Assembly: GCA_025357635.1 (NCBI GenBank)
Contig: JANXOV010000136.1
Span: 1-64,000, forward strand
Direction of reading: 5' to 3'
DNA from: Pseudomonadota bacterium
GTDB lineage: Bacteria > Pseudomonadota > Gammaproteobacteria > Steroidobacterales > Steroidobacteraceae
DNA length: 64,000 nucleotides
A program made the translations under genes and the position numbers. Below the pieces are notes generated by a model. The model was not told the DNA's origin. It searched no databases and saw only the letters and a list, made by a program, of their open reading frames with translations. Within the stretch, counting starts at the first letter, position 1, and each line of letters starts with the position of its first letter. This document shows, one piece after another, positions 4,946 through 55,143 of the stretch.

Positions 4946-5941
4946 ATGTCATCGGCCGTTCCGCCAGCCAATCCTTCTGATTCTCCGCGCCGGACTTGTC
5001 GCGTCTGCCGCTCGGAGAAAGGACACTTCTTCGAGGCCAATGGCTTTTCCTGGCGGCGTTGTACGAACTGCGCCTGCATTCAGAAGACCCTGTCGTTCGA
5101 TCAGTATCTGAAATTGCAGCCCAGCTACGACCCCGGACACTACCTGGATTCAAAGAACAAGGCGGAGATTGAAGCGTATCTAAATGTGGGACAGGCGAGG
5201 CAGTTGCTATCCCGCGTCATTGACCGGCATTTGATCCGCGAAGCGCGCGAATCCGCTGCACCGCTGTTCCTGGACGTTGGCTGTGGAATGGGGGCGTATT
5301 TGCTGGCGGCTCAACAGCTTGGCTTCGAGGTATTGGGGTTTGAACCAAGCGAAAACCACGCCCGGGTCGCTTTGGAACACTTTGGGCTGCCGGTGATCAG
5401 GGACTATTTCCTGCCTGAGAGCGTGGGGGGCAAGAAATTTGACTTCATCATGCTTTCGCATGTCCTGGAGCACATCTATGACCCGGCGCAGTTCACCCAC
5501 TCGCTTCTGAGTGTGCTGAAACCCGGAGGAATACTCTTGGTGATAACGCCGAACTCTGCAGGGATCGTTTCGGCCTTCACGCGCAAACATTGGCCCATGC
5601 TCAAGCCGATTGATCACGTTACGCTGATTTCCAAAGACGCCTACCAATACTTCAATCTGAGCGCTGTCGCGGATGTGCACCACAGCACTTCTGAGTATTT
5701 CTATGAGTTTGCGGCCACCGTGCTTTCGTCAATCAAATCCATGGTTCGTGAACCTGCTGCGGCTTCGGCCAATGGTGTTTCTTCGCAGCCGCAAACCGCC
5801 GCCCCACCTCTTCGCCGCAAGGGAATGAAAACGACATTTCTGCAAATGGCACTTTCCGTCGCATCGCTGCCCCCGCACCTGCTGGCTGCGGCGACAGACC
5901 GCCGAGCCTGCTTGAATACTGTGGTCGTTCGCAAGGCGTGA
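4946..5941 (+). CDS. Class I SAM methyltransferase with N-terminal zinc ribbon
   Basis: Methyltransferase of 331 residues. Cys18, Cys21, Cys39 and Cys42 (CRVC ... CTNC) form a four-cysteine zinc ribbon typical of sugar-modifying methyltransferases. The SAM-binding loop LFLDVGCGMGAY lies near residue 107, followed by an acidic residue in VLGFEPS and the motif-II-like FDFIMLSHVLEHI. It probably methylates a nucleotide sugar or nascent polysaccharide. It starts the plus-strand group and faces asnB across a divergent promoter region. The target position of methylation is unknown. Confidence 0.85.
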   Translation: MSSAVPPANPSDSPRRTCRVCRSEKGHFFEANGFSWRRCTNCACIQKTLSFDQYLKLQPSYDPGHYLDSKNKAEIEAYLNVGQARQLLSRVIDRHLIREARESAAPLFLDVGCGMGAYLLAAQQLGFEVLGFEPSENHARVALEHFGLPVIRDYFLPESVGGKKFDFIMLSHVLEHIYDPAQFTHSLLSVLKPGGILLVITPNSAGIVSAFTRKHWPMLKPIDHVTLISKDAYQYFNLSAVADVHHSTSEYFYEFAATVLSSIKSMVREPAAASANGVSSQPQTAAPPLRRKGMKTTFLQMALSVASLPPHLLAAATDRRACLNTVVVRKA

Positions 5942-49395: not shown

Positions 49396-49457
49396 GTCCG
49401 CTGAGTCTCGCAAGAGCGTTGCCGCGGCGCAACTCACGGCTGCTATGATCGCGCGCT

Positions 49458-50708
49458 GTGCGCAGCGAACCATCCGCAAAGCCGACTCTTCTCCAGGCAT
49501 TGGGCAACAAGCGCATGGCCGCCATCCTGGCGCTGGGCTTTGCCTCGGGCCTGCCGCTGAATCTGACCGGTTCGACGCTGCAAGCCTGGCTTGCCAGCGT
49601 CGGCCTCGACATCAAGACCATCGGCATTTTTTCGCTGGTGGGGCTGCCCTATGTATTCAAGTTTCTGTGGGCGCCGTTTCTGGACCGGTTCCTGCCCCCG
49701 CTGCTGGGACGGCGCCGCGGCTGGATTCTGATCTATCAGGTGCTGCTCGCGATCTGCATCGGCGCCCTCGGCTTCACCTCGCCGACCGATGCGCCGTACA
49801 TGGTCGGCGTGATCGCCATGCTGCTGGCGTTCCTGTCCGCCTCGCAGGACATCGTCATCGACGCCTATCGCGCCGACGTGGTGCGCCCCTCCGAACGCGC
49901 GCTGGCTGCCGCCGCCACCGCATTCGGATATCGCACGGCCGCCATGATTGCCGGCGCATTGATCGTCCTGATGGCCGACCAGATCGGCTGGCGCGCCGCG
50001 TATCTGATCGTCGCGGTGGCGATGGCGTTCACTTGTCTGGCGACGATTTTCTCCCCTGAACCCGAATCGCCCGGGCACGCGCCGCGCACCATGGCCGATG
50101 CGGTCATGAATCCGCTCAAGGAACTGCTCATGCGCCGCAGTTCGTGGGCGTTTCTGCTGTTGGTGCTGCTGTACAAGGTGGGCGATGCCTTTGCCTTGAG
50201 CCTGTACAGCGCCTTCATGATCAAAGGCGTCGGGTTTTCGCTGACCGAACTGAGTCTGGCCGGCAAGGTCAACATGACCATTTCGACCATGATCGGCACC
50301 GCGCTGGGCGGGTGGCTGTACCTGCGCTGGGGCCTGTTCCGCTGCCTGCTCATCTTCGGCATTGCGCAGGCGCTCACCAACTTGCTGTACATGTGGCTGG
50401 CGCTGGCGGGCAAGCAACTGTGGCTGTTGATTCTCGCCACCAGCGTCGATAATCTGGCCGGCGGCATGGGCCAGGCTGCGTTTGTCGCGTTTCTGATGTC
50501 TCAGTGCAGCGCCAATTACAGCGCCACGCAATACGCGCTGCTGTCGGCACTCGCGTCAATTCCACGCGTGGTGCTCGGCGCCGTCGCCGGTCAGGTGGTG
50601 ACCGATGTCGGCTGGCCGCGCTTTTTCGTGATCACCTTCCTGTGTGCACTACCGGGCCTTGCGCTGCTGATCGCACTGCGCCGCCGGATCAACGCAATCG
50701 AGGGCTGA
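49458..50708 (+). CDS. ampG: AmpG-like muropeptide permease (MFS)
   Basis: Major facilitator superfamily transporter of 416 residues with 12 helices. [52 protein letters not shown]-like order closely follows AmpG, which imports anhydro-muropeptides for wall recycling. It starts at GTG 49458. The last 11 codons are contained in a 34-base sequence that occurs again 1,417 bases downstream (see the mobile element). Confidence 0.88.
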
Positions 50709-50709
50709 G
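50676..50709. repeat. Left 34-bp direct repeat (ampG 3' end)
   Basis: Perfect 34-base match to 52093-52126. It contains the last 11 codons of ampG including its stop, beginning CTGCGCCGCCGGATCAACGC. The bases outside both ends differ between copies. Confidence 0.95.
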
Positions 50710-50757
50710 AGGGCTGCTTGCCCTGGATACCGGTCGGAATGCATGATCGTTTATGAT

Positions 50758-50786
50758 TTGACTAATTATCAGTAAGTTGATAAATT
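50758..50786 (+). promoter_or_regulatory. Promoter with inverted-repeat operator before the ATPase
   Basis: TTGACT (50758-50763) and TAAATT (50781-50786) are separated by 17 bases. The inverted repeat TTATCA-N6-TGATAA (50766-50771 and 50778-50783) covers the spacer and -10, a typical autorepression site. It leads to the ATG at 50824. Confidence 0.6.
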
Positions 50787-50823
50787 GTCATGACCATCTA
50801 TCAAGCTATTGCAATCTGGTCAC

Positions 50824-52002
50824 ATGGAAAAGCCGCGTTACCTGAGCGATTCGATTCGGCAAGACGCTCTCGCACACGGAAAGATGGCGTTCGTTTCCGG
50901 ACCGCGGCAGGTCGGTAAGACAACGCTGGCGAAACAGCTACTCGAGTCCCCGGAAAACTACCACAGTTGGGACGACGCGGATTTTCGCAGGGCGTGGAGC
51001 CGATCGCCGCGATCGGCTTTGTCGGATCGAGGACCCGGACCGGTGGTCCTGGACGAGATCCACAAAGATCGGCGTTGGAAGACGCGCCTGAAAGGCGTGT
51101 ATGACACGGAGGGTGCTGCAAGCGGGGTCATCGTGACTGGCAGCGCACGACTGGATATTTACCGGCGTGGCGGCGACAGCTTGCTGGGGCGCTTCATTCC
51201 CTACAGATTGCATCCGTTTAGCGTTGCCGAAACCGATAGGCCGCCTGGCCCCGATGAGATATTCGCAACCACGACTGCACATCGGCGGCTTGCGGATTTA
51301 TTGCGTACCAGCGGGTTTCCCGAGCCCTTCCTCGACGGCAGTGAATTGCGGGCGCGGCGTTGGAGTCGCCTGCGAATCGAACGCCTATTGACAGAGGATG
51401 TACGCGATCTTCGCGCGGTGGAGGATCTGTCAGCCATGCGCGTACTGGCCGACCTGCTTCCTGAGCGCGTGGGTTCGCTGCTATCGATGAACTCCCTGCG
51501 GGAAGATGTTGGCGTGGCCTATGCCACGGTCAGAAGCTGGCTGCAGGTATTCGACGCGCTATATCACACCTTCCTCATCCACCCGTACTCGCGGCGCGTG
51601 GTGCGCGCCATCCGCTCGACTCCCAAACTTTATCTTTTCGATATTCTGCAGATCCGCTCGACCGAAGTGGCTGCTCGCCTGGAAAATCTGACCGCATTGC
51701 ATCTGTTGAAGGCTTGTCAATATTGGACCGACCTGGCGCATGGACATTTCGAGCTTCGATTTGTACGCGACAAGCAACAGCGCGAGGTTGATTTTCTGGT
51801 GATTCGCGACGGCGAGCCGTGGCTAATGGTCGAGTGCAAATCCGGTGATACGGCGCCTAGCCCTGCATTGCTCTATTTTCAGAACATTTTACGAGTCGGC
51901 CGGGCTTTCCAACTTGTTACCCGTCCCGACTATGATCGGCTGTATGCCAAAACGGGTGTGCGTGTTCTTTACTATGAGCGCTTCTTTGCCGGGTTGGTTT
52001 GA
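50824..52002 (+). CDS. AAA-family ATPase with DUF4143 nuclease-like domain
   Basis: Protein of 392 residues. Walker A is SGPRQVGKTT (about residues 24-33) and Walker B is VVLDEIHK (about residue 75). The C-terminal DUF4143 part has a PD-(D/E)xK-like core: REVDFLV, then LMVECKSG. Such proteins are found as accessory genes on islands and as solitary cargo; the role is unknown. The ATG at 50824 was chosen by the Met-Glu-Lys-Pro-Arg-Tyr start shared in the family. It is carried on the 1,417-base insertion. Confidence 0.88.
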   Translation: MEKPRYLSDSIRQDALAHGKMAFVSGPRQVGKTTLAKQLLESPENYHSWDDADFRRAWSRSPRSALSDRGPGPVVLDEIHKDRRWKTRLKGVYDTEGAASGVIVTGSARLDIYRRGGDSLLGRFIPYRLHPFSVAETDRPPGPDEIFATTTAHRRLADLLRTSGFPEPFLDGSELRARRWSRLRIERLLTEDVRDLRAVEDLSAMRVLADLLPERVGSLLSMNSLREDVGVAYATVRSWLQVFDALYHTFLIHPYSRRVVRAIRSTPKLYLFDILQIRSTEVAARLENLTALHLLKACQYWTDLAHGHFELRFVRDKQQREVDFLVIRDGEPWLMVECKSGDTAPSPALLYFQNILRVGRAFQLVTRPDYDRLYAKTGVRVLYYERFFAGLV

Positions 52003-52092
52003 CGGACATTGCGTGATCCGGAACTTGGCCTGGACGCCGATCTGCGCCTGATCCGCCCGCCCGAGCGGGGGCCGTACCGTCGTGCGAGGCCG

Positions 52093-52126
52093 CTGCGCCG
52101 CCGGATCAACGCAATCGAGGGCTGAG
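52093..52126. repeat. Right 34-bp direct repeat
   Basis: Perfect copy of 50676-50709. It carries the last six codons and stop of the convergent DUF6763-like gene on the minus strand. The preceding base is G here but A in the left copy. Confidence 0.95.
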
Positions 52127-52414
52127 CCGGCTGGAGTCGGCCGACCACTGCGGCTGCGCGTTGTCTTCGAATTCACGGCCCAGGTCTTCGGAGTCCACGT
52201 CCACCGAACCGGACCAGTCCTCCGGCGCATCGGCCGCTTCGATGGACTCGTCTTTGAGCAACTCGTTCCACGCGTCGAAATCCATCTCCTCGACGGTGCC
52301 GTCGAAATACTGGATCTCGATGGTCTGATCCTCGTCATCGATCGCGACGATTTCGAACAGCGCATTGGTCGCACCGCGATACCACTCGCCGATCTCTGGC
52401 TTGAGCACGTTCAT
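52106..52414 (-). CDS. Small acidic protein, DUF6763-like
   Basis: Acidic protein of 102 residues with no signal peptide or membrane helix. The recognisable part is IGEWYRGATNALFEIVAIDDEDQTIEIQYFDG and EEMDFDAWNEL, then APEDWSG, which resemble short uncharacterised gammaproteobacterial proteins. GGAGG lies five bases before the ATG. The C-terminus SRLSPRLR is supplied by the right 34-base repeat. The family name is my recollection and should be treated as tentative. Confidence 0.65.
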   Translation of the reverse strand: MNVLKPEIGEWYRGATNALFEIVAIDDEDQTIEIQYFDGTVEEMDFDAWNELLKDESIEAADAPEDWSGSVDVDSEDLGREFEDNAQPQWSADSSRLSPRLR

Positions 52415-52508
52415 GGCTGCCTCCGTCTGTTATGCTGCAGCCTAATTCAACTCTCATTGTGTCCGCGACGCAATCGGTAGTTTTCCTTGGCGCGAAGCAG
52501 CATCCAAC

Positions 52509-53132
52509 GTGGTTCAGCAGCTCCTAAAGTTCTTCATCGTGTTCTTCGTCGTCGTCGAACCCATCTCGCTGATCCCCGTGTTCGCCGGCCTGACCGAAGG
52601 CGCCAGCGACCTGTATAAGCGCAAGATGGCCTTCAAGTCCTGCGCCATCGCGCTGGGCATCTGCGTGCTGTTCGCCCTGGTGGGCGCGAAGTTTTTGCAA
52701 ATCATGGGCATAGCGTTGAGCTCGTTCCGCCTGGCCGGCGGGACGCTGCTGTTCCTCATCGCCTTGGAAATGGTGTTCGCCCGGCCTTCAGGAACGCGCA
52801 CCACCGCACCCGAGGAACAGGAGTGCGCCAGGCGCGCCGACGTGTCGGTTTTCCCGCTGGCATTTCCCTTCATCGCCGGTCCTGGCGCGCTGGCCACCAT
52901 CCTGCTCACCGCCGGTGAAGTCGGCGGCCATCCGGCCCTGTTCGCGGGGTTTCTCGCGGTGGTCGCGGCCGTGATGGCGCTGTGCTGGATCATCATGCTG
53001 GCCACGCCGCGCCTGATGCGCGTGCTGGGCGTCACCGGCGCCAACGTCGTCAACCGCCTTTCCGGCGTTGTGCTGGCGGCGCTGGCGGTTCAGTTCATTG
53101 TCGATGGCATTCGCGGCAGCTTTCTCAGCTGA
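52509..53132 (+). CDS. MarC/UPF0056 family inner membrane protein
   Basis: Polytopic membrane protein of 207 residues with six predicted helices. FFIVFFVVVEPISLIPVFAGLTEGAS starts the family, PFIAGPGALATILL is a conserved loop, and the end has NRLSGVVLAALAVQFIVDGI. Members have no settled transport substrate. It starts at GTG 52509 and is divergent from the DUF6763-like gene. Confidence 0.88.
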   Translation: MVQQLLKFFIVFFVVVEPISLIPVFAGLTEGASDLYKRKMAFKSCAIALGICVLFALVGAKFLQIMGIALSSFRLAGGTLLFLIALEMVFARPSGTRTTAPEEQECARRADVSVFPLAFPFIAGPGALATILLTAGEVGGHPALFAGFLAVVAAVMALCWIIMLATPRLMRVLGVTGANVVNRLSGVVLAALAVQFIVDGIRGSFLS

Positions 53133-53189
53133 AGGTTGCGTTGACCGGACTTTTTGTGTTTCAGAACGGACTGAACTAGACTTAGTCCA

Positions 53190-53441
53190 ATGGAGAAACC
53201 CCTGTCAAAAGCCATCAACATTCATGAAGCCAAGACCCACCTTTCGCGACTCGTGGAACAGGCCGCAAACGGGAAGGAAGTGATCATCGCGAAGGCCGGC
53301 AAGCCCATGGCACGACTGGTGCCGCTGGCGGCGGCCGCGCGCCCTAAGAAGCTCGGTATGCTCAAGGGCCGGATCAAGGTCCCCGACGACTTCAATGCAC
53401 CGCTGGACGCCGAGACTCTGGCAATGTTTCAGGGGCGCTAG
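53190..53441 (+). CDS. Phd/YefM-type antitoxin
   Basis: Antitoxin of 83 residues. INIHEAKTHLSRLVEQAANGKEVIIAKAGKPMARLVPL matches Phd/YefM, with the DNA-binding N-terminal half and a C-terminal tail that would cap the toxin. The next gene, a PIN toxin, starts two bases after the stop. An imperfect palindrome GGACT-N11-AGTCC at 53170-53190 just upstream could be the operator. Confidence 0.85.
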   Translation: MEKPLSKAINIHEAKTHLSRLVEQAANGKEVIIAKAGKPMARLVPLAAAARPKKLGMLKGRIKVPDDFNAPLDAETLAMFQGR

Positions 53442-53443
53442 CC

Positions 53444-53818
53444 GTGCGACTGCTTCTGGACACGCATTTGTTGCTATGGACCTTGAGTGAGCCCAGGCGC
53501 ATCGGCCGCAAGGCGCTGGCTCTCATCGACCGTTCCGATGTCTATGTCAGTGCAGCGTCAATATGGGAAATCAGTATCAAAGCGGCGCAGGGCAAACTGA
53601 AGGCGACGCCCGGACTCGTACTGAAATCCGTTGAACCGGCCGGCTTCTCGCTATTGGCCATCCAAGCAGAGCATGCCGCGCGCGTATTTGATCTGGGTAT
53701 GAACCACAACGATCCCTTCGATCGGCTGCTGATCGCCCAGGCGCAGATGGAATCCATGACATTGTTGACGAACGACGAGGTGCTGAAATCCTACGGCAAC
53801 TGCGTGCAGTTGATTTGA
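53444..53818 (+). CDS. PIN-domain (VapC-like) toxin
   Basis: RNase toxin of 124 residues. The PIN acidic residues are present: Asp6 in LLLDTHLLLW, Glu near 43 in ASIWEISIK, and Asp residues in HNDPFDRLLIAQA near residue 88. It starts at GTG 53444. It pairs with the Phd-type antitoxin, the common Phd-PIN type II arrangement. Likely target is tRNA or rRNA. Confidence 0.87.
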   Translation: MRLLLDTHLLLWTLSEPRRIGRKALALIDRSDVYVSAASIWEISIKAAQGKLKATPGLVLKSVEPAGFSLLAIQAEHAARVFDLGMNHNDPFDRLLIAQAQMESMTLLTNDEVLKSYGNCVQLI

Positions 53819-53895
53819 TCGCCTTCGCGGGCCGTGGCGGCCCAAGCAAGCGGGGCAATGCATCCCTCAGTATCCAAAACTAATTTGCTCCTCTT

Positions 53896-55143
53896 TCAGC
53901 GCACCCTCAGCAGCGCATGCTTCTTCTTTCCCACCGACAGCTTGATCACTCCGCCGCCCAGGTCCGCCTCCGTCAGCGCGCGTTCGGCGGTCACCGTCTC
54001 GTTGTTGATCTTCAGGGCATTCGAGCCCATATGACGGCGGCCTTCGCTTTTGGACGCGATGAGCTGCACGGCGAGGAAGGCATCCAGCAGCGGATAGCCG
54101 CGGGCCAGTGTTTCACGCGCCAGATCCACCGAGGGCAGGCCGCTGGCGGCATCGCCCTGTTCGAAGGTCTTGCGCGCAGTGTCGGCGGCGGCCTCGGCGG
54201 CGGCGCGGCCGTGCAGCCACGCGGTGGCCTCCGTCGCCAGTATCTTCTTGGCTTCATTGATCTCGGCGCCGCCCAGCGCAGCCAGGCGCCGAACCTCCGC
54301 CATCGCAAGCGTCGTGAAGCGCGACAGCATCGTGCCGACATCGGCATCCTCGGTGTTGCGCCAGAACTGCCAGTAGTCGTAGGCGCTGCAGAGGTCTTCG
54401 TTCAGCCACACCGCGCCGGTCTCGGTCTTGCCCATCTTGCGTCCCGATGCGGTGGTCAGGAGCGGTGTGGTCAGCCCGAAGACCTCGATGCCGTCCTTGC
54501 GGCGGCACAACTCCACGCCGTTGACGATGTTGCCCCATTGATCCGAGCCGCCCATCTGCAGGCGGCAGCCGCAGCGCCGGTACAGTTCGTGGAAGTCGTA
54601 GGCCTGCATCAGCATGTAATTGAATTCGAGAAACGTCATCGGGCTCTCGCGCTCCAGACGCAGCTTCACGCTGTCGAAGCTCAACATGCGGTTGATGGTG
54701 AATTCCGTGCCGCAGTCGCGCAGGAACTCCACGTAACCCAGCTTGGAAAGCCAGACGTCGTTGTCGACCATCATCGCATCGGTAGGGCCGGAGCCGAACG
54801 ACAGGAATTTCGCGAACACCCCCTGGATGGAGGCGATGTTGGCGCGGATATCGTCATCCGTCAGCAGCGCGCGCTGCGTGTCCTTGCCGGTGGGATCACC
54901 CACTTTGGTGGTGCCGCCACCCATCAACGCGACGGGCCGGTGTCCGGTACGCTGCAGCCAGTAAAGCATGATGATCTGGACGAGGCTGCCGACGTGCAGC
55001 GAGCGGGCGGTGGCATCGAAGCCGATGTAGCCGGTCACCACCTCGCGCGCCGCCAGCGCATCGAGCCCCTCGAGATGGGTGCCTTGATGGATGAAGCCGC
55101 GCTCGTTCAGCACTTGCAGAAAATCGGACTTGAATGTCGACAT
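53896..55143 (-). CDS. tyrS: Tyrosyl-tRNA synthetase
   Basis: Class I aminoacyl-tRNA synthetase of 415 residues. The HIGH motif reads HVGSL (about residues 51-55), the KMSKS loop reads KMGKTE, and [12 protein letters not shown] lies between. A C-terminal S4 RNA-binding domain (about 345-415) follows. It charges tRNA-Tyr in the cytoplasm. It converges with the PIN toxin, with a short GGGCCG/CGGCCC stem between them. Confidence 0.96.

Follow-up and report, generated by a model that had tools for sequence, protein, structure and literature searches.

A DUF4143-type ATPase gene between two copies of a perfect 34-bp repeat at the convergent 3' ends of ampG and a DUF6763 gene: a possible single-gene mobile unit

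Gene layout and junctions

The window, by which we mean the whole stretch of DNA analysed, comprises the first 64,000 nucleotides of contig JANXOV010000136.1 from a member of the Steroidobacteraceae (GCA_025357635.1). Within it, an ampG-like gene and a convergent DUF6763 gene are separated by an insert whose interior holds a single convincing gene, encoding an ATPase with AAA_14 and DUF4143 domains, and no integrase or transfer genes (Table 1). The insert is bracketed by a direct repeat of 34 bp (identity 34/34, start-to-start distance 1417 bp) which can be extended to 41 bp with 2 mismatches. It is the sole exact direct repeat of at least 20 bp in the window, and one of 34 bp would arise by chance at about 1e-10. 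BLAST searches with each insert margin located only these two copies in the draft genome, all other matches having E > 0.1. The left copy corresponds to the final 33 bases of ampG (stop codon 50706-50708) plus one base, and the right copy contains the last six codons and stop of the DUF6763 gene. When the flanks were joined in a script, the DUF6763 protein and the ampG tail were unaltered and the two gene ends overlapped by 20 bp. A first-pass annotation, made from the letters of this DNA, had described a perfect repeat around an AAA/DUF4143 gene, with both neighbouring genes left intact and no integrase inside, and all of this was confirmed.

None of the listed inverted repeats of 12 bp or more lies at the two insert ends, which, together with the 34-bp duplication, does not fit known insertion sequence (IS) ends or a DDE transposon. 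There was no Rfam match at 49400-53900 and no tRNA in the 64-kb window. The 90 bp from the ATPase stop to the right repeat (52003-52092) gave no convincing match; by eye, the ATPase frame stays open across them and into the repeat's ampG-type end.

The host assembly is a 182-contig draft of 4.29 Mb with a completeness of 100 and a contamination estimate of 0.42%. A 34-mer is below the k-mer length of many assemblies, and a foreign contig might have been falsely joined between overlapping ends; the fragmented draft and a gene of foreign composition would agree with this. However, the false join would have been needed twice, the completeness and low contamination argue against it, and the same genome carries seven further DUF4143 genes. 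In addition, the usual assembly error is collapse rather than duplication. We regard an assembly artefact as very improbable.

Table 1. Features of the window, and repeats or units at DUF4143 and tRNA genes of the genomes compared (L, locus; G, genome; coordinates without a prefix are those of the window)
Feature	Coordinates	Strand	Remarks
ampG-like muropeptide major facilitator superfamily (MFS) transporter gene	49458..50708	+	TIGR00901 above cut-off; final 33 bases within left repeat copy
Left copy, perfect 34-bp direct repeat	50676..50709		Repeat listing and script comparison
Unique part of insert	50710..52092	+	1,383 bp (1,417 bp including one repeat copy); GC 0.575 vs 0.63 for window
Sigma-70-like promoter match, TTGACT-17-TAAATT	50758..50786	+	Overlaps first dyad; 1 found vs 0.7 expected in shuffles, weak alone
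Dyad O1	50759..50790	+	Two 13-bp half-sites, 6-bp spacer, 11/13 complementary
Dyad O2	50791..50822	+	Weaker (9/13); abuts O1, centres 32 bp apart; ends one base before ATG
ATPase gene	50824..52002	+	AAA_14, winged-helix-like segment (by eye), PD-(D/E)XK-like C-terminal DUF4143; PADLOC PDC-S01
Right copy, 34-bp direct repeat	52093..52126		Gives DUF6763 gene its 3' end
DUF6763 gene, convergent to ampG	52106..52414	-	PF20549
25-bp bracket	Own genome, contig 87		tRNA 3' end by eye; ARAGORN calls none there
45-bp bracket	L086		Inside called tRNA-Ser
48-bp bracket, three tandem copies	L085/L132		No tRNA called; aligns with 3' part of called tRNA-Val genes
53-bp bracket in 227-bp 85% repeat	L102/L131		Repeat starts in 3' end of called tRNA-Leu
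97-bp bracket in 175-bp 97% duplication	G160:C59 (L225:3563-3737 and 5218-5392)		3' part of protein gene; contig ends inside second copy
tRNA-Val(CAC) units, tandem or single	L132:6748-10999, L310:4241-9548, L312:3275-5906, L313:3038-5787, L318:2810-4550		tRNA called in most, not L132

The ATPase and its upstream region

Both domains of the ATPase exceed the Pfam gathering score (AAA_14, 76.1 bits against a cut-off of 27; DUF4143, 79.2 bits against 28.1). The protein also matches the PADLOC model PDC-S01, a phage-defence candidate, at E = 4.9e-52. There was no NCBIfam match, and a search by sequence found no solved structure at E <= 0.01. With PDC-S01 the window ATPase shares the sequence family and the architecture given in the accessible text of PMC12988326, namely an ATPase fused to a PD-(D/E)XK domain; that text places PDC-S01 fourth in frequency among prokaryotic defence systems, most such candidates awaiting validation. 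The host draft genome contains eight DUF4143 matches, the window ATPase included.

An AlphaFold2 model of the whole ATPase had a mean predicted local distance difference test score (pLDDT) of 88. Among its best structural matches, over residues 1-278/279, were the archaeal AAA ATPases PABY2304 (PDB 2qen; Z 11.0, 242 residues, root-mean-square deviation (rmsd) 5.2, only 14% identity) and SSO1545 (PDB 2fna; Z 10.6, 246 residues, rmsd 5.6, only 15% identity), with which other AAA structures tie within 1 Z unit. The transposition ATPases TnsC and MuB were listed too, among many AAA proteins. The C-terminal domain, modelled alone (AlphaFold2, pLDDT 95), gave 15 structural matches at moderate Z values of 7.1-8.7, many of them nucleases by title; the comparison with EcoT38I had Z 8.2 (114 residues, rmsd 3.9), with McrBC Z 8.2 (111 residues, rmsd 3.2) and with Can2 Z 8.1 (115 residues, rmsd 3.2). 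Foldseek alone returned no match for this domain at E <= 0.001. Its residues E50, D52 and E66 are invariant and K68 nearly so across 28 sequences; by predicted fold plus conserved residues, the domain is PD-(D/E)XK-like. Residues 219-247 of the ATPase resemble a helix-turn-helix (HTH) segment, judged by eye from model and alignment.

The promoter region is AT-rich, with a GC content of 0.37 vs 0.63 for the window. Its description in the first-pass annotation, an AT-rich promoter with an operator, captured a real sequence feature which is more elaborate than stated there: four 13-bp half-sites of alternating orientation precede the ATG at 50824 and make up the two abutting 32-bp dyads O1 and O2. 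A third dyad, at 50777-50804 (12/14), is interleaved with them. As the alternative start codon TTG at 50809 falls between two operator half-sites, the ATG at 50824 is the likelier start. At up to 3 mismatches the dyad pattern occurs in the draft genome only at O1 and O2, and a reversed control pattern does not occur at all.

Similar arrangements precede many relatives of the gene. A single good dyad (at least 10/12) was found upstream of 43 of the 58 ATPase homologues, the window included, vs none of 29 ampG genes. Dyad pairs exactly 32 bp apart and scoring at least 17 were present in 35/53 upstream regions of the clade (the window ATPase again counted) vs 1/53 dinucleotide shuffles and 2/29 ampG upstreams. 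The spacing of 32 bp, a post hoc choice that emerged when spacings of 27-42 bp were scanned and was then tallied for 20-50 bp, is the best one in 20/53 clade upstreams. When the proteins are clustered at 70% identity, 8.4 of 23 clusters favour it, against 1.8 for the runner-up; at 60% identity, 4.1 of 10 do. Upstream of other DUF4143 genes, outside the clade, the signal is weak (9/88 vs 1/88 shuffles), and 32 bp is not the best spacing there.

The uniqueness of the dyads in the genome and their architecture suggest that the ATPase is autoregulated through the double dyad, and for a double dyad private to a one-gene unit self-regulation is the most economical explanation. The ATPase may repress or tune its own promoter, its winged-helix-like segment perhaps binding both dyads. 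The half-site sequences vary between clades. That they track the HTH segment was not supported: in a small set of 19 sequences, operator distance correlated at 0.37 with HTH distance and at 0.53 with AAA-domain distance, and therefore relatedness alone accounts for the half-site pattern so far. In a Bdellovibrio metagenome-assembled genome (MAG), a second copy of the operator/promoter lies 1.3 kb upstream of the ATPase, before another gene (L057:2646-2700); possibly it is the trace of a lost ATPase copy.

Repeats and small units in related genomes

AmpG-family matches were present in 57 of 59 genomes, and 29 ampG loci were drawn from these, many with distant AmpG matches (31-55%). None has an ATPase match (E <= 1e-5) beside ampG, in a flank of up to 1.5 kb and mostly of that length, and the insertion site is on that account ATPase-free in the relatives examined. 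In the two nearest (~69% AmpG identity), ampG and DUF6763 are convergent, 72 and 27 bp apart, without an ATPase; they match the 34-mer at 20/34 and 22/34 bases and the two genes do not overlap. The empty site for which the first-pass annotation had proposed to compare relatives was thus found as regards the absence of the ATPase, but not as regards a single 34-base copy with overlapping gene ends. Some more distant relatives have a different gene, Rieske-like by eye, next to ampG, and the sole genome of the same genus (82% complete) has no close ampG match.

The same annotation had proposed to search other genomes for the ATPase between direct repeats of neighbouring gene ends, and brackets of this general kind occur at a minority of DUF4143 genes. 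We scored a gene as bracketed if an exact direct repeat of at least 20 bp lay within 600 bp on both sides. The sample, a part of all matches from which the window ATPase was excluded, comprised 142 DUF4143 genes: fetched stretches contributed 91, of which 6 belong to the own genome and 85 to relatives, chiefly the strongest matches, and a further 51 (one from the own genome) were added. Among the 136 with enough flank, five were bracketed, mostly by tRNA 3' ends, vs 1/338 intervals of the same loci, 0/29 ampG loci and 0/23 full-length PIN loci (Fisher p = 0.005 with these controls pooled; they are not wholly independent, several intervals coming from one locus). In the sample tested, DUF4143 genes are bracketed in excess of controls. 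For four of the five, the repeat is a tRNA 3' end or adjoins one; ARAGORN calls the tRNA gene in two of these, and in the other two it was recognised by eye or from an alignment with called tRNA-Val genes. The fifth repeat is the 3' part of a protein gene. Three further candidates were dropped, their repeats lying more than 600 bp away and duplicating no gene end; by eye, these are an hsdM fragment (G028:C32), a transposase-like fragment (G051:C92) and AbiEi-like paralogues (G011:C67).

Several tRNA cases belong to arrays of small units. In the tandem array at L132, a unit with a DUF4143 gene is followed by one with Fic and thioesterase-like genes. The tRNA-Val-associated repeat of L132 has a match in 33 of 58 genomes of its genus, in most only to the 41-bp tRNA part. 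Fourteen longer copies, selected by likeness to the query copy and coming from nine genomes (G073, G064, G065, G066, G072, G096, G112, G110 and G059), have in common an arm of ~110 bp directly beside the tRNA core at the distal unit junctions, as would be expected for sites recognised by an integrase. Successive copies, or the tRNA and the first copy, are separated by 1.6-3.6 kb in the arrays of six of these genomes and by ~7 kb in two. The tRNA-Val units carry one to a few genes, not always one. Besides ordinary enzymes they encode, among others, Fic, a Gp49-like/HTH pair, a GHKL ATPase and a ParE-like toxin with a ribbon-helix-helix protein; a truncated DUF4143 gene is also present, and one copy is followed by a PIN gene. 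In G082 (L322:616-8881), a tRNA-Leu-associated repeat has four copies in a stretch of 8.3 kb; one of the units between them encodes an AAA_14 ATPase and a flavin reductase, another a nucleotidyltransferase/HEPN pair. A tRNA-Leu unit of G091 contains tyrosine recombinases.

Pfam searches of 46 predicted proteins, which represent part of the open frames and include a few outside the units or from other cargo, gave three integrase matches, a weak N-terminal one (E = 0.004, L313) and two strong ones (L321). No intact integrase was found among the proteins scanned in the tRNA-Val(CAC) units of the five loci in Table 1. These loci show that DUF4143-type genes can sit in small att-like (attachment site-like) units, most without a detected integrase. 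The arrays at tRNA genes differ from the window both in site and in repeat.

Origin of the insert

The GC content at third codon positions of the ATPase gene is 0.634 vs 0.791-0.851 in five neighbouring genes. At E <= 1e-60 the ATPase has a match in 23 of 217 genomes of the host's family, its own included, and the family matches listed outside its own genome all have at most 47% identity. The closest relatives in named records are MAGs assigned to Anaeromyxobacter (66%), other Deltaproteobacteria, Planctomycetota, Bdellovibrio and an uncultured proteobacterium; of 25 relatives overall, eleven are near full length at 56-66% identity, mostly from Deltaproteobacteria and Planctomycetota, the rest being lower or partial. 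Plasmid records contained two relatives (35-36% identity, E <= 1e-40), and a search of viral contigs, confined to close relatives, found none. From its composition and the distribution of its relatives, the ATPase gene looks foreign.

Such a distribution in distant lineages would also fit transposition by an unrecognised activity, for which the PD-(D/E)XK-like nuclease of the ATPase itself is a candidate, with the 34-bp repeat as target-site duplication. The nuclease-like predicted fold of the C-terminal domain, its conserved acidic and lysine residues, and the presence of TnsC and MuB among the structural matches point the same way, but the AAA matches are generic. The bracketing repeats, of 25 to at least 97 bp and mostly tRNA-derived, fit att sites better. 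Moreover, the 5' and 3' margins of the insert have no convincing DNA similarity to those of any relative beyond the operator boxes, and hence no common unit boundary is seen. We consider transposition improbable.

The explanation we favour, with confidence about evenly balanced, is insertion of a non-autonomous unit by site-specific, att-type exchange. A horizontally acquired unit, consisting of the DUF4143/PDC-S01 ATPase gene with its own double-dyad promoter, would have integrated where the 3' ends of ampG and DUF6763 converge. The 34-bp core would now stand at both junctions, and therefore both genes would have been restored. Lacking a recombinase, the unit may be a cassette resembling a cis-mobilizable element (CIME), moved by an integrase acting in trans; alternatively, it may be the remnant of a larger element that has lost its integrase. 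The host draft genome has 15 tyrosine-recombinase (phage-integrase) matches, a possible source in trans, none of them linked to the 34-mer site. We infer that such an enzyme acted, that the 34-mer is of att type, and which way the transfer went.

A number of observations weigh against site-specific exchange. Neither a recombinase nor an att arm was found in the insert. BLAST of both insert margins found no recurrence elsewhere in the draft genome, and the 34-bp core has no recombinase-like inverted repeat (205/300 shuffles were equally good). The insertion leaving both gene ends whole that the first-pass annotation described is supported, while the att core and the movement in trans suggested there stay conjectural. 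Among the genomes compared there is no strain-level empty site with a single 34-mer, and downstream of ampG in the 29 relatives the gene's end nowhere recurs over more than 12 bp. Of the 136 DUF4143 genes, 131 have no bracket; initial controls with overlapping intervals gave 5/961 (vs 4/59 genes) and 5/1261 (vs 2/91 genes within 700 bp). The tRNA cases L131 and L132 have long arms or longer repeats of 85-88%, unlike the clean 34/34 of the window.

The main rival to site-specific exchange is a one-off illegitimate capture, in which a break with long staggered ends between ampG and DUF6763 was filled in, duplicating 34 bp, and a passing ATPase fragment was ligated without a recombinase. It would account for a clean repeat which ends abruptly and has no arms, for a core that has neither an inverted repeat nor a second copy in the genome, and for the lack of a repeated ampG end in relatives. 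It would not lead one to expect an insert of almost exactly one promoter and one gene, nor a gene family bracketed by gene-end repeats above the control rate. We know of no well documented bacterial precedent for such 34-bp duplications. Illegitimate capture seems to us rather unlikely.

Under site-specific exchange, the closest known counterpart of the insert is the CIME, along with the tandem accretion of ICEs/IMEs; the CIME is described in the accessible text of PMC5704250 as an element without integration or transfer genes, with attL/attR-like repeats at a gene 3' end and in tandem arrays at tRNA genes; the arrays at tRNA genes of related genomes resemble the accretion of CIMEs as presented there. 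Like a CIME, the insert has no integrase or transfer genes; its 34/34 repeat, at the 3' ends of ampG and DUF6763, may correspond to the att-like repeats. It differs in being a unit of ~1.4 kb with one gene and in having its repeat at a pair of protein genes, not at a tRNA. No related complete element was found for the window unit, the 34-mer occurring only twice in the draft genome. Integron gene cassettes, too, are small tandem units, each with a recombination-site-like repeat and most without a recombinase of their own. The units at tRNA genes would parallel them, being small, tandem, repeat-ended and mostly without a recombinase, but the repeats here are gene or tRNA 3' ends and the window gene apparently has its own promoter. 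Integron cassettes usually lack promoters.

Neither the gene family nor att-bounded remnants nor tandem accretion is new in kind. Within the accessible parts of the literature found (PMC12988326, PMC13356809, PMC4406477, PMC5704250 and PMC12255303), a double operator of PDC-S01 is unreported, and neither it nor a mobile-unit context belongs to the description in the first of these. Relative to the same parts, the single-gene size, the junction with protein genes and the operator pair of fixed pitch are new. The whole suggests that such defence-candidate genes can travel as tiny self-contained units.

More broadly, the PDC-S01/DUF4143 ATPases of this clade might be self-contained, self-regulated defence cassettes. 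Each would bear two dyads at a 32-bp pitch (~three helical turns), bound by its own winged helix through clade-specific half-sites, and, lacking a recombinase of its own, would be moved between gene 3' ends by integrases in trans, forming integron-like arrays at tRNA genes and, here, settling at ampG/DUF6763. This generalisation is tentative and, on balance, doubtful. The recurrent promoter architecture offers a handle on the timing of PDC-S01 activation and on the DNA that the protein recognises; att-bounded units of such small size, if real, would help to explain the spread of solitary genes of this kind. The window copy is a clean example, in which the operator, the junctions and the empty site predicted can be given to the base.

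Near the insert, just past MarC, the window contains a Phd/YefM-like antitoxin and PIN toxin-like gene pair (53190-53818).

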